From assembly GCA_022843175.1 (NCBI GenBank), contig JALHOE010000076.1:1-36976 (forward strand): 36,976 bases of DNA, in the 5' to 3' direction. The notes under the pieces are model-generated. The model had not been told where the DNA came from and did not search any database. It worked only from the letters and a program-made list of their open reading frames with translations. This DNA comes from Deltaproteobacteria bacterium. Its GTDB lineage: Bacteria > Myxococcota_A > Polyangia > Polyangiales > JADJMO01. Shown piece by piece: positions 14,420 to 32,367 of the stretch. Positions within the stretch are counted from its first letter, which is position 1. Each line of letters begins with the position of its first letter. Both the position numbers and the translations under genes were made by a program.

Positions 14420-14487
14420 CCTCAAGCCGTTGCGCGTGCCCGCAAACGGGCTTGCGGTCGATCGATCCTCTGATAACGTCGAAGTCC

Positions 14488-16649: not shown

Positions 16650-16972
16650 CCCGCTCCCCGAAGGAGATCGCGGACGCGATCGCGCCGCACGTGGCGGCGA
16701 TCGTCGCCGTGCTCGCTGCCCCGCAGCCGGTGTCCGATCCGCTGCTGCCACTCGCGGACGCCGCGCGTGAAGCGGCCACGTCGGTCCGCGTGCTGCGCGA
16801 TGCGGTCCGCGCGAGGGAGCTCCCCGCGTTCGGTCGCGAGCGCGATCGATCGGTTCGCCGCTCCGACCTCGAGCGATGGATCGAGAGCCGGCGCGTGGTG
16901 CACGCCGCGATCGATGACGATGACATCGAGCGTCGTGTTCGTCGCATCGGCGCGCAGCGGAAAGCCGGCTGA
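16646..16972 (+). CDS. Excisionase-family (MerR-like HTH) protein
   Basis: The 108-aa protein starts at GTG 16646, overlapping the preceding stop. Residues about 35-85 read LLPLADAAREAATSVRVLRD, then ARELPAFGRERDRSVRRSDL and ERWIESRR. This is the HTH_17 pattern (Ala-Ala helix, recognition helix, wing, then a final RRSDLExW helix) of phage excisionases and terminase-associated DNA binders. It is a good candidate for the element's recombination directionality factor or an early regulator. A basic tail follows. Confidence 0.65.
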   Translation: MTRSPKEIADAIAPHVAAIVAVLAAPQPVSDPLLPLADAAREAATSVRVLRDAVRARELPAFGRERDRSVRRSDLERWIESRRVVHAAIDDDDIERRVRRIGAQRKAG

Positions 16973-17083
16973 TGGTCGTGACGAGAGATGTGTCGTTGTT
17001 GTCGTGGTTAACCGCGATGTGTCGCGGTGCGCCGCGTGGACCAGCGCGCGCGGGACGCGCATGGTGGTCATGAGGTGATTGCA

Positions 17084-17281
17084 ATGACGACCATGCATGC
17101 CAGCTTCGATTTGCTCGCGATCCGTGCTGCCGCCGCCCTCGAGGGGGTCGACGTGCGCAGCGTGTTGAAGCGCCTCTGCGGTGGGGTTGTTCGCGGCGTC
17201 GCCGGCGTCCGCGCCGACCGCGCGATCGCGCGACTCCGCAATCCCGACCGGCCCGCGAGCTCGCCGCTCAGCGCGGCATGA
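17084..17281 (+). CDS. Small helical protein, possible HTH
   Basis: The 65-aa product from ATG 17084 is preceded by GAGGTGAT about 8 nt upstream. The core LLAIRAAAALEGVDVRSVLK then RLCGG resembles the LRAIS..GVDPRTVLRYLAG core of the gene at 16389, so the two may be diverged duplicates of a DNA-binding unit. No other domain is visible. The frame opens earlier (17027) but lacks a ribosome site there. Confidence 0.45.
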   Translation: MTTMHASFDLLAIRAAAALEGVDVRSVLKRLCGGVVRGVAGVRADRAIARLRNPDRPASSPLSAA

Positions 17282-17291
17282 GACGACCCGG

Positions 17292-17498
17292 ATGCCCCTG
17301 ACACCCCCCACCCGAAACACCATGTGTTGCGCATGCGCGCGCCGCACGGCCGTGATCTGCATGCTCGCGCACGTGTTGTGCGGGCTTTGCCTCGAGCGGC
17401 TCCGCGCGTCGCTGCTCGGCCCCGGCCGGGCCGGCTACGACGACCGCGTCGTGGATCTTTCCGATGAGGGCCTGGGCCTCCGCAAGGGGGCTGCGTAA
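17292..17498 (+). CDS. Small zinc-ribbon-like protein
   Basis: The 68-aa product has two CxxC knuckles (C12-A-C pattern with Cys12/Cys15 and Cys30/Cys33 in TMCCACARRT and LCGLCLERL), a likely zinc-binding ribbon. Its TAA stop shares one base with the ATG of the replication-type gene, so the two are coupled. ATG 17322 is an alternative start. Function unknown; similar small ribbons are common in phage early regions. Confidence 0.5.
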   Translation: MPLTPPTRNTMCCACARRTAVICMLAHVLCGLCLERLRASLLGPGRAGYDDRVVDLSDEGLGLRKGAA

Positions 17499-18559
17499 TG
17501 GCCGGACGGAAGGCTGCGGGCAAACGTCGCGAAGTTCTCGCGTCGGGTTGGGACCAAGTCCGAGGGTGCTCCACGCTCGCACAGTTGCTGTTCGCCTACG
17601 CGCGCACGGGACATCAAAGCCCGATCGTCCCCGGCATCGGCCGCTGGTCGATGGCGTTGGCCGCCGAGCACCTTGGCTGTGATGTCGCGGAGATCCGTTC
17701 CGCGATCGCGGAGCTCGCCGTGCGCGACGTGATGTTCGTCGACGAGGCGATGGGCGTCGTCTTCATCCCCTTCGGCTGTCGCGAGGGCACACCGGCGACG
17801 AAGCACTACGTGACGTCGTGGGTCCATCCCCTCGCCGACATTCCGGCTTGTGAGCTGAAGACGCGCGCACTCCGCATCCTCGCGACGATCTGCGCCGAGA
17901 AGGGGCCGGAGTTCGCCGCCGAGCTCGTCGCGATCGGTGGTGCACCCCCTATCGACCCCCCATCCACCCCCCCCGTCCACCCCCCGTCCACGCATGGTGC
18001 ATCGGGGGTCGATCATCATGTCACCGGTCTCGGGTCACCGGGTGCAGGAGACCGGGTGCAGGGTTCCGCGCGCACCGCGCCGCCACTGCCCGTCGTCCCC
18101 GACGACGTCCTCCCGGTGCTCGCCGAGCTCGAGACCGGTCGCGATCTGTATCCCGACGTTGAGCAGGCGGCGCTGAACGCGATGGCGACGCGCATCCACC
18201 GTCTCGTCGGTGAATGCGTGGAGGCGAAGCGCGATGGCGTCACCCCGGCGATCGCGACGGCTGAAGGCGTTGCGTACGCGCGCAGTTTCAGGGCCGAGAA
18301 GACGCTCGCGACCGGCGCGCTGGTGCTCTCGAAGGTCGAGGCGAAGGTCACGTGGGTGCTGAACGACTGTCGTGTGGGTAAGCGCCGCAAGGTGCCGCAC
18401 AGGGGCATGGAGGGGCCTGGCACCGGGGGCGACGACTTCGTCGCGCACGAGCTCGCGGAGATGGAGCGCACGCTACGCGGCGCCGCGCCACCACCACCAC
18501 GAGGGGTCGCCACCGGCTCGACTCTCTTTGCCGCCCAGAAGGAGGCGGTGGGTGCATGA
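17498..18559 (+). CDS. Phage replication-type protein with winged helix
   Basis: The 353-aa protein has an N-terminal winged-helix region (about 25-85): LLFAYARTGHQSPI, WSMALAAEHLGCDVAEIRSA, IAELAVRDVMFVDEAMGVVF. This is the arrangement of phage replisome-organiser or DnaD/O-like proteins. A Pro/His-rich low-complexity linker (about 148-165; PPSTPPVHPPST) separates it from a helical C-terminal part (AALNAMATRIHRLVGECVEA). No nuclease or ATPase motif is seen. The position after early regulators and before packaging genes fits replication. It overlaps the next gene by ATGA. Confidence 0.5.
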   Translation: MAGRKAAGKRREVLASGWDQVRGCSTLAQLLFAYARTGHQSPIVPGIGRWSMALAAEHLGCDVAEIRSAIAELAVRDVMFVDEAMGVVFIPFGCREGTPATKHYVTSWVHPLADIPACELKTRALRILATICAEKGPEFAAELVAIGGAPPIDPPSTPPVHPPSTHGASGVDHHVTGLGSPGAGDRVQGSARTAPPLPVVPDDVLPVLAELETGRDLYPDVEQAALNAMATRIHRLVGECVEAKRDGVTPAIATAEGVAYARSFRAEKTLATGALVLSKVEAKVTWVLNDCRVGKRRKVPHRGMEGPGTGGDDFVAHELAEMERTLRGAAPPPPRGVATGSTLFAAQKEAVGA

Positions 18560-19632
18560 TGAGCGGCCGACACGCTCTCCTTCATGCGCACCCGGAACGG
18601 TTCGAAAGTTCCGAGTGCGACTGCCGCAGCTCGGCCTGCCGTTTTTGCGACCCGCTCGTGGGCGCGCGCGCGCCCGTTTCTATCGATGGGTCGCCTCGCG
18701 CGCGGGAAGTTGAGCGGCGCTCGCCCGGGGCGCTCGAGGGCGTCGCGATCGACCCGTCGGCGGGCGACGCTCCCGCACACGAAGCCGCCAATTCGCGGGC
18801 GAAACGAGCGTTCAATGCTGCTTGGCCCGATGGGATGGCCCGCGAGCTCACGTTGGCCCCCGTCGACGTGCTCGCCGAAGCTCGCGCCATCCTCTCGCGT
18901 CTTGAGGCTTCGGCGGGGCCCGTTCGCCCCTGGGCCTCGCTCCGAGCCGAGCTCGTCACCCGCTCGTTCCGCGATGACTTGCTCGCGCTTGCGGGCGTGG
19001 TCCGCGCTGGTGAGGCCCTCCTCGGCCACTCCGTCGACGATGTGACCGGCGTTCGGTCGCCGCGGCATGTCCCGGCGGGTCGCGACCGCCGCCGCGTTCT
19101 AGACGCGGTTGTGCGGGCCCGCTGGACCCTCTCGATGTTGCCCTCAACGGCGGCCGATGCCGCACGGAGTCCTAACCCGATGCCCTCGATCTACGCGCCC
19201 ACGTGGCAAGTCGCCTCGCCGTTGTCATTCCAAAACGTCGGCGACGTCGACATTCCGCCCTGCACCGTTGTCTCGTTCAAGTTCGGCGAGCCGAGCGGGA
19301 TCTACATCCTCCCGGCCGGACTCGTGCCGCCCTTCGCCCTGGTGACGCCGTCGGACCCCATCACCTATCGGGTTGCTGGAGTCACGATGCAGTCGATTCG
19401 AGCGGGTCAGCTTGGCCCGGTCGCCGGCCGGCCCGGTGACATCGTCGTGGTTCAGCTATCAGGCGATCCGGTCACCGCCGGACAGCACGTCTCCCCCTAC
19501 TCCAGCGCGCCGGGCTTGGTGAAGCTCGAGAGCCTCACCGAGGCACACCAGTTCGGCCCGAGGATGATCGCGCCGACCTCTGGCGTGGCTGGCGAGTACA
19601 TCGAGGCTCAGATCACCTCGAGCGGGTACTGA
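18556..19632 (+). CDS. Two-part protein: helical N-terminal half and capsid-decoration-like C-terminal half
   Basis: 358 aa in one uninterrupted frame, but with two dissimilar halves. Residues 1-208 are charged and helical, with an early CDCRSSACRFC cluster that could bind zinc. Residues 209-358, starting at an inner ATG at 19180 with GGAG 10 nt upstream, are beta-rich (APTWQVASPLSFQNVGDVD, IPPCTVVSFKF, RPGDIVVVQLSGDPVTAGQH). They look like the small DUF2190-type head-decoration proteins. The inner start might make the second half separately. Both readings are inference; no family is certain. Confidence 0.5.
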   Translation: MMSGRHALLHAHPERFESSECDCRSSACRFCDPLVGARAPVSIDGSPRAREVERRSPGALEGVAIDPSAGDAPAHEAANSRAKRAFNAAWPDGMARELTLAPVDVLAEARAILSRLEASAGPVRPWASLRAELVTRSFRDDLLALAGVVRAGEALLGHSVDDVTGVRSPRHVPAGRDRRRVLDAVVRARWTLSMLPSTAADAARSPNPMPSIYAPTWQVASPLSFQNVGDVDIPPCTVVSFKFGEPSGIYILPAGLVPPFALVTPSDPITYRVAGVTMQSIRAGQLGPVAGRPGDIVVVQLSGDPVTAGQHVSPYSSAPGLVKLESLTEAHQFGPRMIAPTSGVAGEYIEAQITSSGY

Positions 19633-19638
19633 AGCGAG

Positions 19639-20013
19639 ATGGCTGACGTCCGCCCCAAGACTTCGCCCGTGTCATTTGCCATGGGTCCGCACGGGCTCGA
19701 GGGCCAAGCGCTCGAGGGCGCCCCGTCGTCTCCTAACCTGAGCCGCGACGGGGCTCCCTCGGGACGCGAGGCGACGTCGAAGCGGCGGCGATCGGTGTTC
19801 GAGCGCGCGATCACCGATGCGCCGGGCGGGCGGTACTTCGTCGAAGTGACCGAAACCAGCGATGTCGGGCGTCTGACCATCGTGCTCGTCCACGAGCTCC
19901 CATGTGGCCGGCAGTTTCGGAGTCGGCTCCCGCTGCGCGCCATCGACGCGACGATCGCCGCGCTCAGCGCCGCGCGTGACGAGGTCTACCGCCGCATCGG
20001 GGGTCGCCGGTGA
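19639..20013 (+). CDS. Hypothetical protein (124 aa)
   Basis: Not recognised. After a disordered N-terminus there is a compact alpha/beta part (RYFVEVTETSDVGRLTIVLV, AIDATIAALSAARDEVYRRI). It lies 6 bp after the previous stop and its own stop overlaps the GTG of the next gene, so it belongs to the packaging operon. Its position just before the terminase pair suggests a DNA-packaging or head-related accessory. Confidence 0.55.
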   Translation: MADVRPKTSPVSFAMGPHGLEGQALEGAPSSPNLSRDGAPSGREATSKRRRSVFERAITDAPGGRYFVEVTETSDVGRLTIVLVHELPCGRQFRSRLPLRAIDATIAALSAARDEVYRRIGGRR

Positions 20014-20606
20014 GCGGCCGGTCAATGGTGAACCCCGGACACGGCAACGGCGCGGGTGTGCCGCGCGTCGAGGTCCCTCCGCCCGACGAGCTCTCGTACG
20101 GGGTGCAGGCGCCCGAGCAGGCCGATGCAGGCCGTGAGCGCAGGGCGAACGGCACGTGGGTCAGAGGTGCCAAGCAGGACCAGTCCAAGGGCGGGAAGAC
20201 GCGAGCGGGGACCATCCGGCTTGCGAACGGTCTCGGTCTCGGTCCGCTCGTCACGCTCGAGGCCTTCCGGCCGTTCCTCGAGATGGCCGAGGACTTCCGC
20301 CGGACCCATTCGCTCAACGTCGCGATGCACGTCGGGGGCGGCGAGTGCGGCACCGGGCCCTCGTCGCTCATCGCGTCGGCGGCGCTCCAGCTCGCTGCGT
20401 CGCGCTACTGGTACGCACGGGGCGCGGAGGCGGCCGACGCCGATCTCTTCACCCTCGCGTCCAAGCTCGCGAACGACTCGAGGCAGAATCTGCTCGCGGC
20501 GCACGAGCTCGCGGTACGGGAGTGCAAGAGCCGCGGGGCGAAGACCTCGGGGGCGGAGCGGTCGGCGGCGGCGCTGGCTGCCCTCAACGCTGGGGTGCCG
20601 CGATGA
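20010..20606 (+). CDS. Probable small terminase subunit
   Basis: The 198-aa protein sits directly before the large terminase and overlaps it by ATGA, the standard position of TerS. It is basic at the N-terminus (VRGAKQDQSKGGKTRAG) and helical after residue 70 (LEAFRPFLEMAEDFRRTHSL, LIASAALQLAASRYWYARGA, LASKLANDSRQNLLAAHELA), as oligomeric DNA-recognising small subunits are. A canonical HTH is not obvious, so the call rests on position and composition. It starts at GTG 20010 overlapping the previous stop; ATG 20025 is an alternative. Confidence 0.55.
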   Translation: MSGRSMVNPGHGNGAGVPRVEVPPPDELSYGVQAPEQADAGRERRANGTWVRGAKQDQSKGGKTRAGTIRLANGLGLGPLVTLEAFRPFLEMAEDFRRTHSLNVAMHVGGGECGTGPSSLIASAALQLAASRYWYARGAEAADADLFTLASKLANDSRQNLLAAHELAVRECKSRGAKTSGAERSAAALAALNAGVPR

Positions 20607-22237
20607 TCACCCTCGAGAACCTCCTGACCGCGGGCTTCGGGCTCGTGACGGCGTCGCCGCTTCAACGCGCGATCTGTCGTGCGGCAGACGGTCTCCCCCT
20701 CGCGGACGTACTGCCCGTGGGCGACGTCTCGGCGTGCTTCGGGTGCACGGAGGAAACGATCCCGGTGGGCGCTGCGCCCTCGCTGGTCGTGCTCGTCGCC
20801 GGCGTCCGCGGTGGCAAGACCCTGCTCGCGGTCGCGGCGGCGCTGAAGTCTGCGCTCACGGCGGACCTTTCGAGCCTGCGGCCATACGAGGTCCCGCGCG
20901 TCGCGATCGTTGCCCCGACCGTCGACAACGCGACGGCGGCGTTCTCCATGCTCACCGGCGCGCTGCAGTCGTCGCCGATGCTCCGGCAGCTCGTCGTGCC
21001 CGGGCGCGCACGCGACGAAGACGACTCACTCGGGGCCGGGCCAGTCATCATTCAGCGGCCGGACGGTCGCCGCGTCGAGATCGTGGTGGTCGCGGCGCAC
21101 CGCGGCGGCGTCACCCTGCGCTCGCGATGGCTCGCCGGCTTCGTGCTGGACGAGGTCGCCCTCTTCGGCACGGAGACCACGGGCGCGGCCGTCAACGCGG
21201 AGGAGCTCCTGCGCGCGGCGGAGGGGCGGCTACTCCCGGGCGGTCAGGGCTGGGTAATCTCGTCGCCGTTCGGTCCGAGCGGCCTCCTGCACTCGCTCTA
21301 CAAGACGCATTTCGGGCACCCCTCGAGCTCGGTCGTCGTCGTCCACGCGCCGACTCGTGCCCTCAACCCCGCCTATCCCGCGGAGAAAATCGAGGCGCTG
21401 CGCGCGCGAGAGCCGGACACGGCGGCGCGCGAGTTTGATGCCGAATGGGTCGACGCGGACGCCGCGCTCTTCGACGGCGCCTTGATCGACGGTGCGCGTC
21501 GTGATGGGCCGGAGATCCTCCCGCACGTGAGCGGCGCCCTTTACGCCGCGGCGATCGACCCTGCGACGCGCTCGAACGGCTGGACGCTCGTTGTCATGCG
21601 CGTGGACTACCGCGACGAGCGCGCGTGGTTCCGCGTTGCCCTCGCGCGCGAGTGGCGCGGCTCGAAGTCGAAGCCGCTCGATCCCGAGCAGGTGCTCGGG
21701 GAGATCGCGATCGATCTCGATCGCTACGGCATCAGGCGCGTGGGCACCGATCGCTGGGCATCGGACGCGCTCGCGGCACTTGCGCGGCAGCGCGGGATCG
21801 AGCTCCTCGAGGACGGCGAGTTCGATCGGCCCGCGGAGAAGTACGCGAGCTACGGCACGGTGCGCGCGCTCTTGCAGACGGGCGATCTCGAGCTCGCGCC
21901 CTCGGCGCTGCTCGTGTCCGATCTCAAGTCGGTTCGGCGGCGCGGTTCGGCGAACGGTGTGACGATCGTCCTGCCGAAGACGTCGGACGGACGGCACGCG
22001 GACTTCGCGCCGGCGCTCGTGTTGGCGATGCGCTCGATCGCGCATCGCTCGTACCGCGAGAAGCAGCGACCGCTCCGCGTCGAGGACATCGTCGGCGGAC
22101 GACGCGAGACATTCGGAATGCAGGCATGGGGCGGCAGCGCCTCGATCAACCACGCGGAGCGTGCGCGTAACCCGGCCGTCTACGACGCGGTGCACGGGAC
22201 GAGCGGATCCGATCGCGACAAGTGGGGTGACTGGTGA
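20603..22237 (+). CDS. Phage terminase large subunit
   Basis: 544 aa from ATG 20603. The ATPase half has Walker A GVRGGKT (67-73, Lys72), a conserved AIVAPTVDNA segment, Walker B FVLDEVALFG (Asp183, Glu184) and coupling motif VISSPFGPSG (about 218-226). The nuclease half has an acidic triad: Asp319 in AAIDPATRSNGW, Asp383 in GTDRWASDAL and Asp467 in HADFAPALVLA. All catalytic residues are present, so this DNA-packaging motor should be functional. Upstream open frame is shadow over TerS. Its stop overlaps the next gene (GTGATG). Confidence 0.9.
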   Translation: MITLENLLTAGFGLVTASPLQRAICRAADGLPLADVLPVGDVSACFGCTEETIPVGAAPSLVVLVAGVRGGKTLLAVAAALKSALTADLSSLRPYEVPRVAIVAPTVDNATAAFSMLTGALQSSPMLRQLVVPGRARDEDDSLGAGPVIIQRPDGRRVEIVVVAAHRGGVTLRSRWLAGFVLDEVALFGTETTGAAVNAEELLRAAEGRLLPGGQGWVISSPFGPSGLLHSLYKTHFGHPSSSVVVVHAPTRALNPAYPAEKIEALRAREPDTAAREFDAEWVDADAALFDGALIDGARRDGPEILPHVSGALYAAAIDPATRSNGWTLVVMRVDYRDERAWFRVALAREWRGSKSKPLDPEQVLGEIAIDLDRYGIRRVGTDRWASDALAALARQRGIELLEDGEFDRPAEKYASYGTVRALLQTGDLELAPSALLVSDLKSVRRRGSANGVTIVLPKTSDGRHADFAPALVLAMRSIAHRSYREKQRPLRVEDIVGGRRETFGMQAWGGSASINHAERARNPAVYDAVHGTSGSDRDKWGDW

Positions 22238-23031
22238 TGGAGGCAAGCACGATGAAGGCAGCGAAGACGACGCCGACGCCGGAGACGGCGACCGACGAGA
22301 AGCAAGTCGACCTCATGGCGCGCGCGATCGTGCGTGCACGTGAGATCATCGCCGAGCCCACGCGGCTCGCGCGCGAGGGTTTGGCCGCAGCGGAGCGCGC
22401 CGCACAGGAGCGCAACCGGCGCATCCGCGAGCAACAGGCGGCGAGCTCCTACGAGTTCGATCCGGCGGATCTCACCCACGCGGAGATTGAGCGCGAGCGG
22501 CTCTCGTGGGCGTGGGTCGACACCCGCTTCGAGGACGACGACCGGTTCGCACAAGCGAATGGCCACTGGCTCGTCGCGAACGCGCGCACCGATCGGCGCA
22601 TCGTATTCGGCGATCCGGACTACGGGCACGCCGTGCGCACGTCGGGCCAGCAAGACGACCTCACTGCCCGCGCGTGGTGGTGGGCCGGTTCGCACTCGGC
22701 GTGGGCGTGGCTCGAGGAACGGCTCCCCAAGCCCGTCGCGGAGGGGATGGGCGACTTCACGTCTCGGCTGATCCTTCTCAGCGAAGATGGCTTCGAGATC
22801 TACGTGCGGCAGCCGCATGGGTGGGGTCGGTGGGACTGGCGCCACGATCTCGAGAAGCACAACAGCGCGCGCGCTGTCGAAGCAGCGAAGCGCGCCGAGA
22901 GGGTCGCGCACGACCGCCGTCGCGAGCTGGGCCGGCAACTGCTCGACCAGCATCCCGATCTCGTCATTGCGATGGCCGAGAAGCTCGGCTTCGTCGACGC
23001 GAACGGCCACATCAAGAAAGGAGGTATGTGA
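22234..23031 (+). CDS. Uncharacterised phage protein (265 aa) in the usual portal position
   Basis: Not recognised. The GTG/ATG pair at 22234/22237 overlaps the terminase stop. It has a helical N-terminus (VDLMARAIVRAREIIAEPTR, GLAAAERAAQERNRRIREQQ), a Trp-rich middle (RLSWAWVDTRF, ARAWWWAGSHSAWAWLEERL, GWGRWDW) and a basic helical end. In tailed phages the gene between terminase and prohead protease is normally the portal (about 400-500 aa); this one is too short and has no portal features. It may be a replacement or an unrelated insertion. Confidence 0.6.
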   Translation: MMEASTMKAAKTTPTPETATDEKQVDLMARAIVRAREIIAEPTRLAREGLAAAERAAQERNRRIREQQAASSYEFDPADLTHAEIERERLSWAWVDTRFEDDDRFAQANGHWLVANARTDRRIVFGDPDYGHAVRTSGQQDDLTARAWWWAGSHSAWAWLEERLPKPVAEGMGDFTSRLILLSEDGFEIYVRQPHGWGRWDWRHDLEKHNSARAVEAAKRAERVAHDRRRELGRQLLDQHPDLVIAMAEKLGFVDANGHIKKGGM

Positions 23032-23033
23032 GC

Positions 23034-23837
23034 ATGGAGCAGGAGAACCTCGTTCGTTCGTTCGGAACCCTCGAACGCGCCGCGGATGCCGCGCGTTCGG
23101 TCAACATCATCGCGTCGACCGAAGCCGTCGACGATCACGGCACGATCATCGATCAAGCGTCGTGGAAGCTCGAGCGGTTCATCGGTAACCCCGTCGTGCT
23201 CCTCGAGCACGGAGTCGCCGCGCTATTCGGCGGCGACCCCGCGGATCGTCTGCCGATCGCGCACGCCGAGAACGTCCGCGTCACCGGCGGCAAGCTGCGG
23301 GCGCGCGTCGTGTTCCCCGCGGCGGGTCGCGACGCGCTCGCCGACAAGGTTTGGACCGCGGTAGAGGACGGGCGCCTTCGCGGCGTCTCGGTCGGCTTCC
23401 GACCCGGGCGCGCCGTGCGCGAGGAGGCGAACGGTCGCGACGTCCTGCGGCTGCTCGACTGCTCGCTCCATGAGCTCTCGTTGTGCGCGATTCCCAGCAA
23501 CTCGGAGGCGCTCGTTCAGCGCTCGGTCGCGTCGCTCGACGCGTACGTTCGCGAGCTTCGCGTCGAGAGTAGGCGGTTCGACCAGCGCGTGAGCGAGTAC
23601 CGCCGCAAGCGCTACGCCGAGCTCGGCGAGCAGGTGAGCGACCTCGACGCGATCGACGCCGTCCTTCGTAACGCCGATCTCGCGGACAACGACGTGGCGG
23701 AGAAGACGCCCGCGATGCGTGCGCGCGAGGAGTTCGATTGCCGCGTCGCGAGCCTTCGCGCGCGTGAGCCCGCGTTGCTCGCCTCTGAGGCGATCGACCG
23801 TGTGCTCCGCGGTCTCGACGGGGAGCACGCCGCCTGA
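23034..23837 (+). CDS. HK97-type prohead protease
   Basis: 267 aa. A perfect AAAGGAGGT site (23017-23025) places the start at ATG 23034. The N-terminal half carries the serine protease pattern: His59 in NPVVLLEHG, then PIAHAENVRV, Ser119 in LRGVSVGF and the closing LHELSLCAIPSN. These enzymes cleave scaffold and capsid precursors during head maturation. The C-terminal 100 residues are charged helix (RRFDQRVSEYRRKRYAELGE) and may serve as scaffold. The gene that normally follows, the major capsid protein, is absent. Its stop shares one base with the next ATG. Confidence 0.85.
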   Translation: MEQENLVRSFGTLERAADAARSVNIIASTEAVDDHGTIIDQASWKLERFIGNPVVLLEHGVAALFGGDPADRLPIAHAENVRVTGGKLRARVVFPAAGRDALADKVWTAVEDGRLRGVSVGFRPGRAVREEANGRDVLRLLDCSLHELSLCAIPSNSEALVQRSVASLDAYVRELRVESRRFDQRVSEYRRKRYAELGEQVSDLDAIDAVLRNADLADNDVAEKTPAMRAREEFDCRVASLRAREPALLASEAIDRVLRGLDGEHAA

Positions 23838-24400
23838 TGGCCCGTCACACGAGCCCGCTCGAGGTGGTCGAGATCTGCCTGAGCCACGACGGCACGTACA
23901 TGGCGCGCCTGTGCCCCTACGGGAGCGACGGCGGCGCCGCGATCGCGGTTGGCGCCGATCTCGCCGACGTCGAGGCGCGCGCGACCACCGTCGCGCAGGC
24001 GTACTCGGCGCTGTTGAGCAATTACGAGAAGAGCGTGTCGGTGCACCGGCGCTTCTACGCGCACGCCGTGTACGGCGCGAGCCGGTGGGGCGCAACGGTG
24101 CACCCGCGCAACATGGACAGGCCCCCCGTCTACAACCCCTACCGCGCGTTCATGCTGCCGGTGACGCCGAATGACAGCGTCAACCTCGATAGGCCACGCG
24201 CGTGCAAGTTGTGGGCGGTGTACGGCGGCAATGCCGAAGTCGTTTACGAGACCGGCGCGACAGCGACGCTCGTGATTCCAAGCGGCACGACGGCGCTCGA
24301 CGTTGCGCCGGTCAATCGCATCCGCGCGACGGGCACGACGGCGCGCGGGATCGTCGCGATCTACGACGGCATCCCGTTCCCACAGCCGCAGTGGCCATGA
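23837..24400 (+). CDS. Uncharacterised protein (187 aa) in the major-capsid position
   Basis: Not recognised. ATG 23837 overlaps the protease stop by one base. The N-terminal part is mixed alpha/beta (SPLEVVEICLSHDGTYMARL, ATTVAQAYSALLSNYEK). The C-terminal 70 residues are strand-rich (RACKLWAVYGGNAEVVYETG, ATATLVIPSGTTALDVAPV), suggesting a small beta-sandwich. It is far shorter than an HK97-fold capsid protein (about 300-400 aa). It could be a head decoration, neck or tail component. Kept as unknown. Confidence 0.6.
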   Translation: MARHTSPLEVVEICLSHDGTYMARLCPYGSDGGAAIAVGADLADVEARATTVAQAYSALLSNYEKSVSVHRRFYAHAVYGASRWGATVHPRNMDRPPVYNPYRAFMLPVTPNDSVNLDRPRACKLWAVYGGNAEVVYETGATATLVIPSGTTALDVAPVNRIRATGTTARGIVAIYDGIPFPQPQWP

Positions 24401-24419
24401 GCCACGCGAGGTGCACACC

Positions 24420-27071
24420 ATGAGTGACAGAGAGCTCGTATACCGCGTCACGATCGTTGGGCAGGCTCAGTTCGCGTCGACGCTCAAGAGCCTGACCGAC
24501 ATCACGAAGAAGGCGGCGCAGGAGCAGATCGCAATCGATGACGCGGTCGCGAAGAAGCGGCGCGCGGTGCAGGACGGAAGCGCCAAGCACCACGCATCGC
24601 TGCTCAAGACGCAGATCGCGCTCGAGAAGGCACGGGCCCGCGAGAGCGTTCGCGAGTCCGAGCGGGCCGAACGCGAGGCGATCAAGAACAAGACGCGTGC
24701 AGAGCGCGACAAGACGACCGCGCTCAGCCGCGAGATGAAGGCGCGCGAGCGGCTCGCCGCGCAGGCGCAGCGGGAGACGATCCGCCAGCAACAGGCCGAG
24801 CTCCGCGCATTCGAGCGGACCGAGCGCGAGAAGACGCGCATCGCACAGCGCGAGGCGATGGAGACGCAGCGCTTCGTGATGCGATCGCAGGCCGCGACCG
24901 CGCGCGAGATCATGCGCCAGCGGCAGCAAGCCGCAAACCAGATGGCCCGCGAAGATCGCGATCGGATGTTCGATCGCAAGCGCTTCTACCGCGGCGTCGG
25001 GCAGGGCTTCGTCGAGGGCGGCGCTGGTGCCGCGCGCGCTCTCTATGGCGTCGCCTCGCGCGGCGTGCGCTCGATCGCGCAGGCGAGCGGGTTCGATCGC
25101 TCGTGGGACATCGCAGACATCGCGCAAGAGCAGATGTCGGTCGACGCGACGCTGCGCTCTGCTTCGATCGAGGCGCGACTCGCGGGCAAGTCCGGGTCGT
25201 TCGATGAGAAGGGCGCCGGAAAGAAGATCCGCTTCGCGGCGCTGAAGTACGGCCTCAAGCAGAGCGACCTCGCCGGCGCGATCGACGCCTACTCCGAGAA
25301 GGGTTCGGCCGCGACCGCCGTCACGAACATCGACCGCATCGCGTCGCAGGCGACCGCGCTCGGCACCTCCGCGAGCGTCATTGCGAAGCTGCGTGCGCAG
25401 ATGGGTCTCTCGTCCGCCGTCTCCGGAAAGGAGCTCACCGAGGACGAGAAGGATCAACTCGTCGCGAAAATGCACTTCATCGGCAAGACCGGCGTGTTCC
25501 GCGCTGAGGACGTCGCGCAGGAATCCGAGTCGCTCTTCTCGCAGTTCGCGAAGGGCGGAGGCGACTTCAAGCAGGGCTTCGAGCGCTACCTCTCGTTCGC
25601 GAACCAGGCGCGTGTGGCCACCGGCTCCGGCGCGATGGCCCGCACCTCGATCAACGCGGTGCAGGACGCGATCGCGAAGAAGGAAGGCAAACTCAACGCC
25701 CTCGGCGTCAAGACGCGCGATGCGGACGGCAGCAATCGCGACTTCATCGAGGTCGTGATGGACGCGATCGTCAAGACCGACGGCAAGGGTAAGGCGTTCA
25801 CGCAGATCTTCGACCCGTCGCGATCCGGCAAGGCGATCTCGACGATGATGTCCGCCTACAACGACGCGAGCGGCTACGGAAAGAACAAGGGCGCGGGCCG
25901 CGCGGCGATGGAGAAGCTCCTCAGCGGAGACGCGTCACTGAAGCACGCGACCGTCGCTGAGATGAACAAGGACGCCGCGAGCCGGCTCGACACGCCGGCG
26001 GTGAAGATCGCGCAAGCGACCGAGACCATCCGGCAGTCGTTGGCGGGCGAGCTCGCGCCGGTCCTCGAGGCCTTCGCGAAGAAGGCCCCCGCTATCGCGG
26101 CGAGCATCGCCAAGGCGCTCGACTTCGTGGTGAAGCACCCGATGCTCACGCTCGGCGGCATCGTCGGCGCAGGCGCGATGCAGGGCGCGGCCAAGCCCAT
26201 GGCCGGCGCGCTCGCGCGCTTTGCCGGCGATGTCGTCGGCGGCATCGGCTCACGGTTCGGCGGCATGGGAGGGGCGCTCACGGTCGCCGCTGGCGGAGCG
26301 CTGAAGAGCGCAGGCGCGCAGCCCGTCTACGTGACCGGCGCGGCGCCCGGGGTGTTCCCCGTTGGCGGCGGTGGCGGCCTCTCTCTCCCCGGTGGTGGTG
26401 GTGGCGGTGGTGCTGGCGCCGGTGGCGTCATCGGTCGTGCGGTGATGTCGACCGCAGGGATGGGGGTCGCGCTCGCCGCGATGGTCGGAATTATGGCGAC
26501 ATCTTCCGATCAGCACGGCGAGGGCACCGCCGACAAGGCGGTGGAGGCGGCGAAGAAGCAGCGCGTCTACAACGAGCTGCGCAAGCGTGGCATGTCCCCC
26601 GATCAGATCAACAAGCACCTCGCGGGCGCGAACGGCAACCTCCTCCCCGAGGAGCAGATCGCACGCGACGCGCTCGCGTCGCCGTACGCGAACGACAATG
26701 AGGCGGCTCACATCGCAAAGGTCCTCAACCCGGATGCGCTTGCGTCACCGTACGCGTCGCCCGACGACTACGATTTCGATAAGGGTGGTACGAGCACGTT
26801 CCGCTTCGACAAGAACCCGACGGCGAAGGGCGCGTTTCGTATGCCCGTCACCAAGGGCGAGAAGGGGTACGGCGTTCTCAAACCGGTGGCTACGACGTGG
26901 GACGACCCCGAGGCGCGCAGCGCTGAAGGAAAGTCGGGCGCCACGCTCGCCACCGATAGCGCGAACAAGTCACTCGATTCGTTCGGCAAGGCCGTCGACG
27001 ACGTGACTGCCAAGCTCCGGTCCTTCGAGGCCAACTCTTCCGCGCTCAAACAAGCGTTCGGGAGGATGTGA
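24420..27071 (+). CDS. Tape-measure-like phage tail protein
   Basis: 883 aa from ATG 24420, the largest gene of the element. Residues about 1-170 are a long highly charged coiled coil (ARARESVRESERAEREAIKN, RETIRQQQAELRAFERTERE). A helical TP901-type core follows (about 210-560; LKYGLKQSDLAGAIDAYSEK, SINAVQDAIAKKEGKLNALG). Two hydrophobic Gly/Ala segments (about 570-620 and 680-705, with a run of Gly between) and an Ala/Asp-rich end complete it. This organisation is that of tail length regulators. The assembly chaperones that usually precede it are missing. Its stop overlaps the next gene. Confidence 0.75.
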   Translation: MSDRELVYRVTIVGQAQFASTLKSLTDITKKAAQEQIAIDDAVAKKRRAVQDGSAKHHASLLKTQIALEKARARESVRESERAEREAIKNKTRAERDKTTALSREMKARERLAAQAQRETIRQQQAELRAFERTEREKTRIAQREAMETQRFVMRSQAATAREIMRQRQQAANQMAREDRDRMFDRKRFYRGVGQGFVEGGAGAARALYGVASRGVRSIAQASGFDRSWDIADIAQEQMSVDATLRSASIEARLAGKSGSFDEKGAGKKIRFAALKYGLKQSDLAGAIDAYSEKGSAATAVTNIDRIASQATALGTSASVIAKLRAQMGLSSAVSGKELTEDEKDQLVAKMHFIGKTGVFRAEDVAQESESLFSQFAKGGGDFKQGFERYLSFANQARVATGSGAMARTSINAVQDAIAKKEGKLNALGVKTRDADGSNRDFIEVVMDAIVKTDGKGKAFTQIFDPSRSGKAISTMMSAYNDASGYGKNKGAGRAAMEKLLSGDASLKHATVAEMNKDAASRLDTPAVKIAQATETIRQSLAGELAPVLEAFAKKAPAIAASIAKALDFVVKHPMLTLGGIVGAGAMQGAAKPMAGALARFAGDVVGGIGSRFGGMGGALTVAAGGALKSAGAQPVYVTGAAPGVFPVGGGGGLSLPGGGGGGGAGAGGVIGRAVMSTAGMGVALAAMVGIMATSSDQHGEGTADKAVEAAKKQRVYNELRKRGMSPDQINKHLAGANGNLLPEEQIARDALASPYANDNEAAHIAKVLNPDALASPYASPDDYDFDKGGTSTFRFDKNPTAKGAFRMPVTKGEKGYGVLKPVATTWDDPEARSAEGKSGATLATDSANKSLDSFGKAVDDVTAKLRSFEANSSALKQAFGRM

Positions 27072-27307
27072 TGAGCACCGGCCGCCTCGAAGAAGTGACC
27101 AGTGAGATCGTCCGTCGGATCAAGATGCTGTCCGACGATCCGACAACGGCAGCGCGTGAGTGCCGCGCGATGCGTAGCTACCTCGCGGCGCAGGACGACG
27201 TGCCCGACGAGTGGAAGCGCGGGATCGGCCACATGATCGATCAGGCGTCGGAGCTGTACGACGACGCCGCGATCATGCGGGCGGGCCGCGAGCAATGGCA
27301 TCGGTAA
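27071..27307 (+). CDS. Hypothetical protein (78 aa)
   Basis: Not recognised. A GGAGG (27061-27065) five nt upstream marks ATG 27071; an in-frame GTG at 27068 is closer and less likely. The product is a compact helical protein (LEEVTSEIVRRIKMLSDDPT, WKRGIGHMIDQASELYDDAA). It is the last gene of the packaging/tail operon. Confidence 0.55.
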   Translation: MSTGRLEEVTSEIVRRIKMLSDDPTTAARECRAMRSYLAAQDDVPDEWKRGIGHMIDQASELYDDAAIMRAGREQWHR

Positions 27308-27346
27308 GGGCGGGCGGGCGTAAATAGCGCGCGTGCGAGCGTCGAC

Positions 27347-27388
27347 TTGCATGTCGTTCGCTGTTGACGCACAATGGGTGCACAATGG
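27347..27388 (+). promoter_or_regulatory. Promoter with direct-repeat operator before the RHH gene
   Basis: TTGCAT (27347-27352) and CACAAT (27370-27375) are separated by 17 bp. The -10 box lies in a direct repeat of GCACAATGG (27369-27377 and 27380-27388, 11-bp period, one helical turn). The second repeat contains the ATG of the RHH gene, so the mRNA would be nearly leaderless. RHH proteins typically bind such helical-phase direct repeats, so autoregulation is likely (inference). Confidence 0.45.
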
Positions 27389-27555
27389 TAGACAAGGACA
27401 AGAGGTTGCACGTTCGCGTCACGAGCGAGGAGCTGCGGATGCTGGACGAGATCGCGGAGCGCGAGGAGCGGACTGCGGCTGACGTCGTCCGTCGGTTGAT
27501 TCGGCAGGCCCACGCCGAGGCATTCGGCTCGCCGAAGAAGGCGAGGAAGAAGTGA
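27385..27555 (+). CDS. Ribbon-helix-helix (CopG/Arc-type) regulator
   Basis: The 56-aa protein has a beta-strand KRLHVRVTSEELRMLDEIAE then EERTAADVVRRLIRQAHAE, the strand-helix-turn-helix pattern of RHH dimers, and a Lys/Arg-rich tail. It heads a three-gene unit with the ImmA/IrrE protease (GTGA overlap) and the integrase. It is a likely repressor of this operon acting at the direct repeats over its own start. An upstream TTG (27364) is an alternative start but would run through the operator. Confidence 0.75.
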   Translation: MVDKDKRLHVRVTSEELRMLDEIAEREERTAADVVRRLIRQAHAEAFGSPKKARKK

Positions 27556-27905
27556 CCGCCGCTGAGGTCGCAGATCGCGCCGCCGGCGTTGCTGGGCACG
27601 GCGACCCCGATGCAGGCGAGATCGCGGTCGCGATGGGTATCGCGCTCTACGCGGTCCCCGCGCGACGCCTTCACGGCTGCCGGGCGCAGTACGTCCGCGT
27701 CGGCGAGCAACCAGTCATCCACGTCGACGAGGACCTCTGCGGCGAGGACCTGGCTTTCACCGTGGGTCATGAGCTCGCGCATCACCTCGTATGGCTGTGG
27801 GGCGTCGACGTAGTCGGCGATGCGGAGGAGGCCTTCTGCGATGCGATCGCTAATCACTGGCTTACTGCGCGCCGGCGTCGGTCGCCGCAGTTGGGGTCGG
27901 TCTAG
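27552..27905 (+). CDS. ImmA/IrrE-family metallopeptidase
   Basis: 117 aa from GTG 27552. The zinc motif HExxH is present in TVGHELAHHLVWLWG, and a downstream Glu-containing helix (EEAFCDAIANHWL) supplies the usual third ligand. Family members such as ImmA of ICEBs1 cleave a partner repressor to trigger element excision. Here the gene sits between an RHH regulator and the integrase, so cleavage of the RHH protein (or of another small HTH protein) to induce excision is a reasonable inference. No N-terminal HTH is fused. Confidence 0.8.
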   Translation: MTAAEVADRAAGVAGHGDPDAGEIAVAMGIALYAVPARRLHGCRAQYVRVGEQPVIHVDEDLCGEDLAFTVGHELAHHLVWLWGVDVVGDAEEAFCDAIANHWLTARRRRSPQLGSV

Positions 27906-27907
27906 TC

Positions 27908-29437
27908 ATGGCACCGCGAGCGACGGGATCCGTCGAGACGTACACTCGCGCCGACGGCACGAGGTACTACCGCGCGCGCATCCGGCTGAAGGACGGCACG
28001 CGCGAGCGCGTCGACATCCCCGCGAAGTACACAATCGATGAACGCCGCGCGCTCTACGCCGCCGCGATGCAGGAGCGCGAGGACGAGCGCGGCGAGCTGT
28101 TCGCGAAGAAGCAGGCGAGGATCGCCGCAAAGCAACCGACCGCTCCGACCGCCGCCGAGACGCTCGCGAAGTACCGCGAGCGACTCAACACGCACCGCGG
28201 CGAGCTCGGCCAGGGACACGGCGACCCGAGCGCGTGGAAGGCGTGGATCATTCCACATCTCGGCGGCCTCCCCGTCGCCACCGTGACGCGCGAGCAGATC
28301 GAGACGTTCCGAGACACGCTCGACGCCGCGATCTCACTCCACAAGCGCACCGAGGGGGCGGAGGGCATCAGCGCGAAGCGCGCGCTGAACATCTGGTCGG
28401 AGGTGACCACCACGTTCAAGGCTGCGGTGAACGCGAAGCGCCGCGATCTCCGCGTGCGCGCGGACAACCCCTGTAGCGGTGTTCTGCCGCCGGAGCGCGG
28501 CGACTCGCGCCGCAAGACATTCATCTACCCGAGCGAGCTCGCCGCGGTGCTGGCGGGCGACGCGCCCCTCGAGTGGCGCGAGGTCTACGCGGTCGCCGCG
28601 TACCTTTACCTCCGCCCGGGCGAGCTCCGCGTGCTGACGTGGGGGGACATCGATCTCGGCGCCGCGATCGTCCACGTCACCAAGGCCTTCGACGAGCGGG
28701 CTCAGGAGACGAAGACGCCGAAGACGGAGAACGGCGTGCGCGACGTACCGATTCCCGCGACGCTCGCGCCGCTGCTCGCGCGCATGCGCAAGGGCCGCGA
28801 GCCGCATGAACTCGTTGTCCCCGTGCTCGCGACGCTCACGGAGAACCGCCGCGCGCTGAACCTGCGCGCCGATCTCGAGCGCGCGGGATGCACGCGGCCG
28901 CGCCTCTTCGAGAACACGGCGACGACGATGAGCGTCAACTTTAGAAGTTTGCGCGACAGCGGAATCACGTGGCTCGCGATCACCGGCGTGGACATCGTGA
29001 AGACCCAGCGCAGGGCAGGCCATGACTCGATCGAGACAACGCTGTCTTATACGAAGGCGGCCGAAGACCTCACCGGCTCGATCGGCGAGCCGTTCGGCCC
29101 CCTACCCGCGGACCTCGTTGCCGGTGTAGAACCCATCGGCGGAAGCGGTGGATCTCGGCAGCGTCGGGCCAAGCAACGGGCCAAGTTCACCAAAACCGTC
29201 GCCGATGGGCTAGAATCCGAGGCGTTCTTGGAAGTGCGCGCGGGACTGGTGCCCGCCCCCGTCTTCAAAACGGGTGGGCTCGTCCTTCACGGGGCGGCCG
29301 GTGGGTTCGATTCCCATGCGCTTCCGCCACTTTCCGAAACGATATCGATGGGTTGCGCTGATCGACGGCGAGCCTTGGACGTTTCGTTGGACGATTCGAG
29401 CAGCGACGCAGGGAGTTTGGGGAACACCTCGCCGTAG
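27908..29437 (+). CDS. int: Tyrosine recombinase (integrase) whose frame runs through selC
   Basis: 509 aa as integrated. An N-terminal DNA-binding domain (DGTRYYRARIRLKDGTRER), a core-binding helix bundle (about 85-195) and a catalytic domain are present: Arg236 in LYLRPGEL, Arg349, His372 in RRAGHDSIETT and Tyr381 in LSYT. The usual His of the HxxR box is Arg346 (FRSLR). Catalysis ends near residue 390. From Glu442 the codons are the tRNA-Sec gene (to about 474), and the last 35 come from antisense of the neighbouring integrase. At residue 448/449 the frame crosses the end of the 24-bp core. On a circle it would continue into 14108-14419, giving 551 aa. It starts 2 bp after the ImmA stop. 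Confidence 0.9.
   Translation: MAPRATGSVETYTRADGTRYYRARIRLKDGTRERVDIPAKYTIDERRALYAAAMQEREDERGELFAKKQARIAAKQPTAPTAAETLAKYRERLNTHRGELGQGHGDPSAWKAWIIPHLGGLPVATVTREQIETFRDTLDAAISLHKRTEGAEGISAKRALNIWSEVTTTFKAAVNAKRRDLRVRADNPCSGVLPPERGDSRRKTFIYPSELAAVLAGDAPLEWREVYAVAAYLYLRPGELRVLTWGDIDLGAAIVHVTKAFDERAQETKTPKTENGVRDVPIPATLAPLLARMRKGREPHELVVPVLATLTENRRALNLRADLERAGCTRPRLFENTATTMSVNFRSLRDSGITWLAITGVDIVKTQRRAGHDSIETTLSYTKAAEDLTGSIGEPFGPLPADLVAGVEPIGGSGGSRQRRAKQRAKFTKTVADGLESEAFLEVRAGLVPAPVFKTGGLVLHGAAGGFDSHALPPLSETISMGCADRRRALDVSLDDSSSDAGSLGNTSP
29186..29216 (+). promoter_or_regulatory. Element-supplied promoter for selC
   Basis: TTCACC (29186-29191) and TAGAAT (29211-29216), 19 bp apart, lie inside the 3' part of the integrase gene. 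The -10 ends 13 bp before the tRNA start. Since the native promoter was left behind at 14070, this is the best candidate to transcribe selC now. The spacing is longer than ideal. Confidence 0.45.
29229..29252 (+). repeat. Right attachment site (attR) within selC
   Basis: Identical in 24 of 24 bases to 14085-14108. It covers the 5' acceptor strand, D-stem 5' strand and D-loop of the intact tRNA-Sec. Strand exchange must occur within these bases. The downstream 77 nt of the tRNA are chromosomal, while everything upstream is from the element. Confidence 0.9.
29230..29329 (+). tRNA. selC: tRNA-Sec (anticodon UCA)
   Basis: The 100-nt gene has all marks of bacterial selenocysteine tRNA. The acceptor stem is 8 bp (29230-29237 with 29318-29325, one G-U), the T-arm 5 bp (29301-29305/29313-29317, loop TTCGATT), the D-stem about 5-6 bp, and the anticodon stem CCCGT/ACGGG with loop CTTCAAA and anticodon TCA at 29265-29267. 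A long variable arm (29275-29300) can form a stem at 280-285/292-297. Discriminator G and an encoded CCA (29327-29329) end it. It is charged with serine, converted by SelA and used at UGA with SelB. No selB/selA or SECIS-bearing gene is seen in the window. Confidence 0.95.
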
Positions 29438-30552
29438 CCCGTGCGCACGAGCGCGGCCGTGTTGATGTACCCCATCGTCGTCTTCACATCGGAGTGCCCC
29501 GCGCGCGCCATCACCACGAACGGTTCGTCTCCACGCACGGCCATCCACGTGATGCCCGTCGTGCGGAGGTCGTGCATGCGTAGCCATTCGCGCGGCGGAT
29601 CGTCGCACCGCTCGTGCAGTTCCTTGCGCGTAACACCCGCGCGCAGCAGATCGGCGCGGAGACGCTCGGCGAGCGTGCGTTCGTCGCCGAGATCCTCGAA
29701 CAGTCGGCCGGTGCCGTCGGTCTCGCGCCGCATCGCCTCGAGCAGTGGGACAATCTCGGGCTCCATTTCGAAGGGCGAGCGCGCACGACCGGCCTTCGGG
29801 CTCTTCTCCTCGCCGCGCGAGCGATCGATGCCGCGCTGGACCTGGATGATCTTGCGGTCGAGATCGACGTCCTCCCAACGCAGCGTCTCGAGCTCGCCGG
29901 GCCGCAGGTAGTTGTAGACGGCGACCGCGTAGTAGCGGCGGCGGAGCTGAGGAACGGCGGTGCAAGCGAGCAGCTTCGCCAGCTCGTCCGGGTACAGGTG
30001 GACCTTCGCGGTGCCGACGCCGCGATCGGGGGCGCGGACGTCGCGCGCGGGGTTGTCGTCACGAACACGGAGAGAGAGCACCTTCGTGCGACTCGCGTCG
30101 TCGAACATCTTCGTAACGGCGCCCCACGCGTTCTGCGCGCTCTTCCACTTGAGGGTCCTACCCGTCACGCGTTGGTCGAGGCGCTCGACGATCCGCTCGA
30201 GCTCGCGCCGCGACACCGTGCTGATCGGCAGATCCCCGATCACCGGAAGGATGTGGTTTTCGAGGAGGGAACGGGTGGCGGGGACCGAGGTGTGGCCCCT
30301 GCGCTCCTTGTCGGCGAGCCAGCGCTCGCACCACGCGCGCACGGTCTCGGTGCGGCTGCGCGCTCGGCCGACGGCCACGCCGCCCTCGTCGCGCGCGATC
30401 TCGGAGACCGAGGCCGCGAAGGCACGCGCTTGGTTCGGGGTCGCTCCCTTGGGAACGTCGACCCAGGGCCGTTTCCCGTTGGCGACGGTGATGCGCGCAC
30501 GGTGCGATCCATCCGCGCGGCGCACCAGGGTTCCGGTCCGCGGGCGCGGCAT
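29287..30552 (-). CDS. int: Tyrosine recombinase (integrase) of the second element, ending inside selC
   Basis: 421 aa. An N-terminal DNA-binding part (RRADGSHRARITVANGKRPW), a core-binding domain (about 70-160) and a full catalytic set are present: Arg217 in YNYLRPGEL, His327 and Arg330 in MHDLRTTGITW, His353 in ARAGHSDVKTT, Tyr362 in GYINT. It is clearly related to the integrase at 27908, including the shared GITW block. Residues 409-421 (GGSAWESNPPAAP) and the TGA stop are encoded by the antisense strand of selC, with the stop in the variable-arm loop. It thus overlaps the opposing integrase by 151 bp. It starts by ATGA overlap with the excisionase-like gene. Confidence 0.92.
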   Translation of the reverse strand: MPRPRTGTLVRRADGSHRARITVANGKRPWVDVPKGATPNQARAFAASVSEIARDEGGVAVGRARSRTETVRAWCERWLADKERRGHTSVPATRSLLENHILPVIGDLPISTVSRRELERIVERLDQRVTGRTLKWKSAQNAWGAVTKMFDDASRTKVLSLRVRDDNPARDVRAPDRGVGTAKVHLYPDELAKLLACTAVPQLRRRYYAVAVYNYLRPGELETLRWEDVDLDRKIIQVQRGIDRSRGEEKSPKAGRARSPFEMEPEIVPLLEAMRRETDGTGRLFEDLGDERTLAERLRADLLRAGVTRKELHERCDDPPREWLRMHDLRTTGITWMAVRGDEPFVVMARAGHSDVKTTMGYINTAALVRTGYGEVFPKLPASLLESSNETSKARRRSAQPIDIVSESGGSAWESNPPAAP

Positions 30553-31075: not shown

Positions 31076-31822
31076 ATGCCGAAGCGACAGGCAAAGGCCT
31101 CACGCCGTGAAGCGCGCGTGCATGATGCTGAACTTATTGAGACAAGTGGCGATTCCAAGGGCTCTGAAGAGGCGTCTGGGAGCAGCTCTCCCAACCAGAC
31201 CTCCCTGTCCAGAGGGCTCGTGGGAAGGACTCAGATAGCGAGACTCCTGGGCATCTCGCCGTCGACGTTCATCCGTCACGTCGAGGGGCACCTCATCAAG
31301 CCCATCGTCGACGATCGAGGCTGGCACAGGTTCAGTCTCGACGACATCGAGACCGTCCGTCAGTCCGTGGAGATCACGCGGTTCCGTCGTGCGCCAGCAA
31401 CCGCAGTCTTCAACCGCCAAGCCGACGATCACGACACCGGTCCCGACCGCGACACGCACGTGGCGATCCTCGAGCTGCTCGACGCCGGGCAATCGCCCGT
31501 CGAGATCGCGAAGAAGCTCAGACTGCTCCCGCGCGAGCTCGACCCCGTCGTCAGGTGGTGGGCGCAGACGAAGGGCGGCTACTTCCTCACCGCGGATCAG
31601 GCCGACGAGGTGTTCTTCGTGCTCCGCGAATGGGGCAAGGCGCGCGGCCCCTCGACGAAGCCCAAGGAGGGCGCGGCGCTCGTGCAGCTCGCGATCGAAG
31701 TCGGGGAGAAGTGCAACGCGATGGACGACGATCGGCGCACGAAGAAGCGGTGCAAGGGGTGTCGCGAGGAGGAGGCGATGTACTGCCCGATCTGCGCGAG
31801 GAAGAAGTTCTCGAAGTCGTGA
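31076..31822 (+). CDS. DNA-binding regulator with MerR-like HTH and C-terminal zinc finger
   Basis: 248 aa. After a charged disordered N-terminus (1-45) comes an HTH of MerR type (RTQIARLLGISPSTFIRHVE, then a wing DDRGWHRFSLDDIETVRQ). A second helical part (LELLDAGQSPVEIAKKLRLL, about 130-150) looks like another HTH, and the C-terminal zinc knuckle has two CxxC pairs (CKGCREE, CPICARKK). It is divergent from the xis-int pair of the second element and probably regulates it. No strong ribosome site is visible. Confidence 0.65.
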   Translation: MPKRQAKASRREARVHDAELIETSGDSKGSEEASGSSSPNQTSLSRGLVGRTQIARLLGISPSTFIRHVEGHLIKPIVDDRGWHRFSLDDIETVRQSVEITRFRRAPATAVFNRQADDHDTGPDRDTHVAILELLDAGQSPVEIAKKLRLLPRELDPVVRWWAQTKGGYFLTADQADEVFFVLREWGKARGPSTKPKEGAALVQLAIEVGEKCNAMDDDRRTKKRCKGCREEEAMYCPICARKKFSKS

Positions 31823-31962: not shown

Positions 31963-32367
31963 ATGGGCAATGCCTTGGTGATGATGGCTGTCCCCGAGGA
32001 GAGCCTGCGGTTCTCGAACCTCTACGTGCTCGACGAGGAGACCCACAAGCCCGTGCGCCTCGTGCAGAGCCGCGGCCACCTCACCGGGAAGCAGCGCGAC
32101 GCGCTCCTCGAGAAGCACCCCGACGCGTTCTGGATGCTGGCCGTCCCGAGGAGCGCCGTCTGGGAGCCGCCGCCCGAGCCCTACGGCCTGGGAGAGAAGC
32201 CAGCCCTTCGCGCGGAGCATACGAAGAAGGTGCGCGCATCCCTGACACGCTTCCTGAACTCCCAGCTCGCGAGCCTCGACCGAATGGTTCGAACCGGGTG
32301 GTGGATCCTCCAGCGGGCGCGCGTGAGGATGACGACCTTCGAGGGCGTCCCGGGTGAGGCCGACTGA
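31963..32367 (+). CDS. Hypothetical protein (134 aa)
   Basis: Not recognised. The product starts with strands (SLRFSNLYVLDEETHKPVRL) and has a helical, basic C-terminal half (KKVRASLTRFLNSQLASLDR). In-frame ATGs at 31981 and 31984 are alternative starts; no clear ribosome site is present. The 140 bp before it (31823-31962) hold nothing I can name. Confidence 0.5.
   Translation: MGNALVMMAVPEESLRFSNLYVLDEETHKPVRLVQSRGHLTGKQRDALLEKHPDAFWMLAVPRSAVWEPPPEPYGLGEKPALRAEHTKKVRASLTRFLNSQLASLDRMVRTGWWILQRARVRMTTFEGVPGEAD

Follow-up and report, generated by a model that had tools for sequence, protein, structure and literature searches.

Evidence for separate 5' and 3' insertions into one tRNA-Sec gene by related myxobacterial tyrosine integrases with attP inside int

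Known crossover places in tRNA genes are the anticodon loop, the T-loop and the 3' junction. The crossover classes of the Islander collection comprise the anticodon and the T-stem/junction only, with no D-arm class, and use of the 5' part of a tRNA gene is rare in bacteria (159 of 3919 islands; PMC4383910). For Mx8, attP has been described as lying inside int (Tojo et al. 1996, as given in PMC6070905 and cited in PMC4383910), and PMC6070905 reports that integration changes both the C-terminus and the specificity of the integrase. The pTN3-like archaeal integrases use the 5' half of a tRNA gene and have their att site inside int, and it is the element side that then drives expression of the recombinant tRNA (PMC8371274).

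The locus described here is a selC gene flanked by a plus-strand integrase (int+, of a left element) and a minus-strand integrase (int-, of a right element). As in Mx8 Int/IntP, which is likewise a myxobacterial tyrosine integrase, a single frame runs from the catalytic part over the core into a C-terminal extension, and integration gives int a new 3' end. In contrast to that likeness in layout, the catalytic parts are only 24-27% identical to Mx8, and over the aligning parts only, while the Mx8 extension gives no real match to the tail profile described below. Like the pTN3-like integrases, the left element uses the 5' half of a tRNA gene with att inside int; unlike them, its crossover appears to lie in the D-arm, and whereas those enzymes are cut in two when they integrate ('suicidal'), int+ keeps its catalytic part whole and loses only the tail. 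As in Islander islands with a 5' fragment, the left element displaces the 5' fragment and has the intact tRNA at its other end. The right integrase, together with nearly all family members, resembles ordinary 3'-end integrases, whose frame runs antisense into the tRNA; int+ differs from these in running sense, from the 5' side. Use of a 5' part, attP within int and antisense overlap with a tRNA gene are thus each already known. The searchable literature, with key older papers outside that scope, yielded neither a D-arm crossover nor a tRNA-Sec gene with one element in its 5' and another in its 3' part, and these two features look new with that reserve.

The selC locus and its two pairs of att sites

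The window, meaning the whole stretch of 36,976 nucleotides that was analysed, is the entire contig C76 of the G000 assembly (9.75 Mb in 470 contigs). Its tRNA-Sec(tca) gene was called by ARAGORN at 29230-29329 on the plus strand, scored 65.1 bits against Rfam RF01852 (gathering score 47) and is 100% identical over 99 bp to the selC of the same-genus genome G001. The gene is likely in use, because the host has a SelB gene that scores above the curated cut-off; it is the sole selC found in G000, with mobile DNA at both ends and its upstream region replaced. An earlier note made from the sequence alone had placed selC between two convergent integrase genes, and its coordinates proved exact, with ARAGORN, Rfam and the ORF positions in agreement. 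As it described, int+ reads sense through selC, int- ends inside it with a stop codon at 29287-29289 in the variable arm, and the two genes overlap by 151 bp through the tRNA (29287-29437). Both proteins contain the Phage_integrase domain PF00589 above cut-off (int+ 1.5e-9, int- 3.6e-10), and at 34% identity over 398 aa and in two well-separated clades of the tree they are indeed related yet distinct.

Table 1. Features of the window and of contig C96 that bear on the two insertions
Feature	Position	Strand	Basis
Candidate native selC -10 TAAGAT, left 15 kb off by the left element, at its far end	14070-14075	+	hexamer match
Left element, prophage-like, 15.1 kb, integrated in the selC 5' part	14085-29229	+	24-bp direct repeats at ends; phage genes
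att site, left end of left element; displaced host fragment, selC -1 to +23	14085-14108	+	24/24 vs 29229-29252
Detached int+ C-terminal tail (joined form 551 aa); tail domain 14246-14416	14109-14419	+	in-frame join; similarity to other tails
Excisionase-like gene, left element	16646-16972	+	phrog_66, 1.3e-6
Terminase large subunit, left element; start approximate	20603-22237	+	phrog_2, 8e-18
Prohead protease, left element	23028-23837	+	PF04586, 5.6e-5
Tape-measure-like tail protein, left element	24303-27071	+	PF10145, 9.8e-5, below curated cut-off
int+, left-element integrase, integrated form 509 aa; catalytic part ends ~29120	27908-29437	+	PF00589, phrog_1
Candidate -10 TAGAAT inside int+, 13 nt 5' of selC, element-supplied	29211-29216	+	5/6 match
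att site, right end of left element; 5' part of intact selC, element-supplied	29229-29252	+	24/24 vs 14085-14108
selC, tRNA-Sec(UCA), intact, target common to both elements	29230-29329	+	ARAGORN, Rfam
selC D-arm inverted repeat GCGGG-ACTGGTG-CCCGC; proposed attB core of left element, 7-bp overlap	29240-29256	+	5-7-5 symmetry
int-, right-element integrase, integrated form 421 aa, ends in selC variable arm	29287-30552	-	PF00589, phrog_1
att site of right element; selC 3' part, T-arm to CCA, last 26 bp	29304-29329	+	26/26 vs G000:C96:28671-28696
Right element, near end up to contig end; far end on contig C96	29330-36976	.	att pair; int- tail on C96
Helix-turn-helix gene of right element, weakly excisionase-like	31076-31822	+	phrog_66, 0.0013; HTH families
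int- tail	C96 28438-28563		tail profile

The att repeats, which the earlier note did not contain, were found for both elements, and its claim that one element uses the 5' part and the other the 3' part of the same tRNA gene is thereby upheld. The left repeat matches selC with an E value of 6e-8 within the window, and the identity spans selC -1 to the D-loop and then stops. Since the last 26 bp of selC recur on C96, the far end of the right element is placed there; the assembly is fragmented (470 contigs), and the joining of this element, split between contigs, was not achieved. Both elements fit the tDNA-integrated type, with direct repeats of a tRNA part at their ends and the intact tRNA at one end. 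The left element fits the 5' type of tDNA island, in which the 5' fragment is displaced upstream and the 5' part and the DNA upstream of it are supplied by the element.

The sequence shows that the right element replaced the 3' part of selC by recombining at the T-arm, and that the left element replaced the 5' part by recombining there, most likely in the D-arm. Each carries the exact piece of selC that it displaced, leaving the tRNA intact, and in silico removal of either element alone restored selC letter for letter. The two pairs of att repeats show that the overlap of int+ and int- is the product of two integrations. Beyond 29252 the int+ ORF crosses selC and enters DNA of the right element, from which the last ~35 residues of the integrated frame come; the protein, now 509 aa, would have 511 aa with the right element absent (in silico). 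Directly 5' of int+, a small protein (27552-27905) has weak similarity to IrrE/M78-type metallopeptidases (phrog_87) and is possibly part of the lysogeny control of the left element.

The earlier note raised the possibility that read-through of either int might disturb selC, in sense or through antisense RNA. Antisense overlap with a tRNA gene is the ordinary state of this integrase family: in all of the ~29 other members whose 3' end meets a tRNA or tmRNA, int lies antisense to that gene and on its 3' side, and int+ is the only sense case. Its sister in the tree (support 100/99; 58% identical) is an integrase that uses the 3' end of tmRNA, and int- falls within a clade of selC-3' integrases (support 100/100). 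The named int+ relatives come from Polyangiaceae assemblies; no relative was found among viral contigs, and matches in phage records reached 22-30% only. A second convergent pair of family integrases, 289 bp apart, was seen at G004:C544:9633-12308, with no tRNA found between them. In the sister integrase on G002:C1146, a hairpin followed by a T-run lies within the 3' coding region, in the direction of tmRNA, so that in a 3'-type element the terminator of tmRNA may come from within int.

The probable D-arm site and a candidate selC promoter

The identity block of the left element stops 1-2 bases into the second arm of the D-arm inverted repeat, as do the 3' elements at selC in theirs. With the crossover position judged from the end of identity and from symmetry, the left element probably crosses over in the D-arm, with the exchange within ACTGGTG. 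Among 69 tRNA sequences, a perfect 5-7-5 repeat was found on the D side in three, all of them selC of this host family, and on the T side in 29. The T-arm site of the int+ sister in tmRNA, read in the int direction, is GCGGG-AGTCGAA-CCCGC; its arms and codon frame are identical to those of the selC D-arm site. Because the D-arm of host-family selC has the same inverted-repeat arms, the left integrase would have switched to it from a T-arm site, for example the tmRNA site of its sister, and we infer a target switch by mimicry.

Use of the 5' part means that the left element takes over the DNA that must carry the selC promoter. The gene would now be transcribed from left-element DNA, either from a promoter inside int (TAGAAT) or by read-through from int. 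Just 0.08% of element positions have a match as good as TAGAAT in the right interval, and the int stretch tested contains no other. No -35 box for a selC promoter was found inside int+, and a scan of 28900-29500 for promoters and terminators found neither. That the left element provides the selC promoter is probable but is the weakest step of the argument, the case for a promoter inside int+ resting on one hexamer.

A conserved integrase tail severed by integration

When the ends of the left element are joined, the int+ frame stays open across the core and encodes 551 aa instead of 509; joining the right element with C96 likewise keeps the int- frame open, giving 496 aa instead of 421. Judged from these joined frames, attP is inside int in both elements, and integration deprives int of a C-terminal tail conserved in many elements. 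Each insertion detaches this tail from the catalytic part, the new end of int being read from the tRNA gene. The element in G003 has the same layout as the two in the window, with its frame open across attP. A tail profile was built from the tails of int+, int- and the G003 element, so the match of the int+ tail to it is that of one of its own rows. Pairwise scores among the three tails were equalled by 1, 11 and 15 of 1000 shuffles, the int- tail being the most divergent.

At an E value of 1e-5, the tail was present in 36 of the 183 genomes of the order. Copies mostly lie at the far ends of other elements, 85-170 nt past a tRNA or tmRNA fragment; where the contig permits (tmRNA in G001, tRNA-Leu in G006), the integrase and the intact gene are at the opposite end, with direct repeats between the tail-side fragment and the int-side gene of 25 bp and 54 bp, respectively. 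Some 20 of the tails inspected stand behind an antisense 3' fragment and three behind a sense 5' fragment, namely selC of the window and tRNA-Leu in G002 and in G481. The second of these 5'-type cases (G002:C79) matches the first 40 nt of tRNA-Leu at 40/40 positions; the third, in G481, looks un-integrated, with the order int-core-tail, a sense 5' piece of tRNA-Leu and an apparent frameshift. Both tRNA-Leu pieces end near the anticodon (38-40 nt), and the selC piece alone ends in the D-loop. In the order-level relatives G480, G481 and G482 the tail domain is expanded, with up to 17 copies per genome and several beside tmRNA 3' fragments.

An integrase tail at G000:C15:52308-52529 stands behind an intact tRNA-Leu(tag) and a 5' piece of tRNA-Leu 14 nt long, and possibly marks another 5'-type insertion in the same genome. 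It was not counted as such: no partner was found, and the 14-mer has one further copy only, outside a tRNA.

selC in related genomes and the weight of other readings

In G001, no family integrase was found up to 10 kb from selC; an ORF that looks hemerythrin-like by its sequence ends just 5' of the gene. Two more selC 3' fragments (G001:C179:30963-30985 and 32204-32226), separated by an IS21-like gene pair, lie 17-18 kb downstream of the gene; they resemble tandem or decayed 3' islands, and the 3' side of selC therefore seems to have been used there too. G003 has an integrase 48% identical to int- at the 3' side of selC, with its far fragment on C48, and no family integrase was found at the 5' side. 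Two contigs of G002 carry an integrase of the int- clade followed by the selC 3' piece only, as expected of attP, and one of them has a tail behind the selC piece, out of frame. From these loci, the 3' end of selC is a regular target of one integrase clade in this host family. Genes further upstream of selC are partly conserved among the window genome, G001 and G003; the left element is absent at selC in the latter two, whose immediate selC flanks are non-collinear with the window.

The single occupants that the earlier note had suggested looking for were thus found in part: G003 has a 3' occupant only, whereas no 5'-only occupant was found in the selC survey, a 5' occupant being found in G000 alone. 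That int- might belong to the same element as int+, or be a fixed chromosomal gene, was the objection which that note had named against two elements. The gene has its own far att site, is absent beside selC in G001 and is 48% identical in G003; a fixed chromosomal gene is ruled out on the latter two grounds. The suggestion that the two integrations might depend on each other is not supported, as the cores are 51 bp apart, each excision alone restores selC, and G003 has an occupant at the 3' side but none at the 5' side. A single, trivial coupling was found, in that the end of int+ is encoded by right-element DNA.

Two separate insertions by members of one myxobacterial tyrosine integrase family, with attP inside the integrase gene, are very likely the correct reading of the locus. 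A single composite element with an integrase on each side of selC would fit the head-to-head arrangement of two members of one broad family, but the two integrases have separate att pairs, lying in different parts of selC, the outer ends differ in sequence and are on two contigs, and the proteins, 34% identical, belong to distant clades. With two att pairs a single element is ruled out, and this origin is extremely improbable. It is also very unlikely, though less so, that only the right side was truly inserted, int+ merely adjoining selC and the match at 14085 having arisen by chance or from an old duplication of selC. In favour of this are the shortness of the repeat (24 bp) and the low frequency of 5' use in Islander given above (PMC4383910); against it stand an identity that runs from selC -1 to the D-loop and stops there (E 6e-8), an int+ frame that continues, exactly there, over the joined core into a tail like those of other elements, and an interval filled with phage genes. 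A chance match in particular is ruled out by its extent, its position and the in-frame tail.

A further reading, which accepts all the sequence facts, concerns function: the split tail and the promoter might do nothing, the tail being whatever lay behind attP and selC being transcribed by ordinary read-through. Members such as G002:C179 that have no such tail after the core, the unrelated tail of Mx8 and the missing -35 box all agree with it. The tail is, however, conserved in distantly related members and at different targets, and the joined cases have it in frame, and a -10 hexamer correctly spaced from selC is unusual in the element; a functionless tail and promoter are on this evidence unlikely, if far from negligible. 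Under the reading with two separate insertions, loss and regain of the tail would help to control which way recombination runs or at what level, an idea put forward for Mx8. A fuller proposal can be offered only tentatively, at somewhat less than even chances: that the D-arm of tRNA-Sec is a further crossover site for tyrosine integrases, reached by a T-arm integrase through the T-arm-like repeat of host-family selC; that the element therefore carries the selC promoter inside int; and that integration in this Polyangiales integrase family detaches a conserved tail and so switches integrase behaviour.

The 3' element is accordingly the ordinary half of the locus. The unusual half is the 5' element, probably a D-arm and promoter-replacing one, together with the conserved tail that is detached. 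The locus can serve as a natural experiment in how integrase targeting shifts inside a tRNA gene, from the 3' T-arm in antisense to the 5' D-arm in sense, with the arms and the codon frame kept. As the ends of selC are owned by mobile DNA and its upstream region has been replaced, control of the selenocysteine supply may have passed to a mobile element. With a conserved tail severed in many elements, the integration-coupled control of the integrase proposed for Mx8 becomes testable across the whole order.
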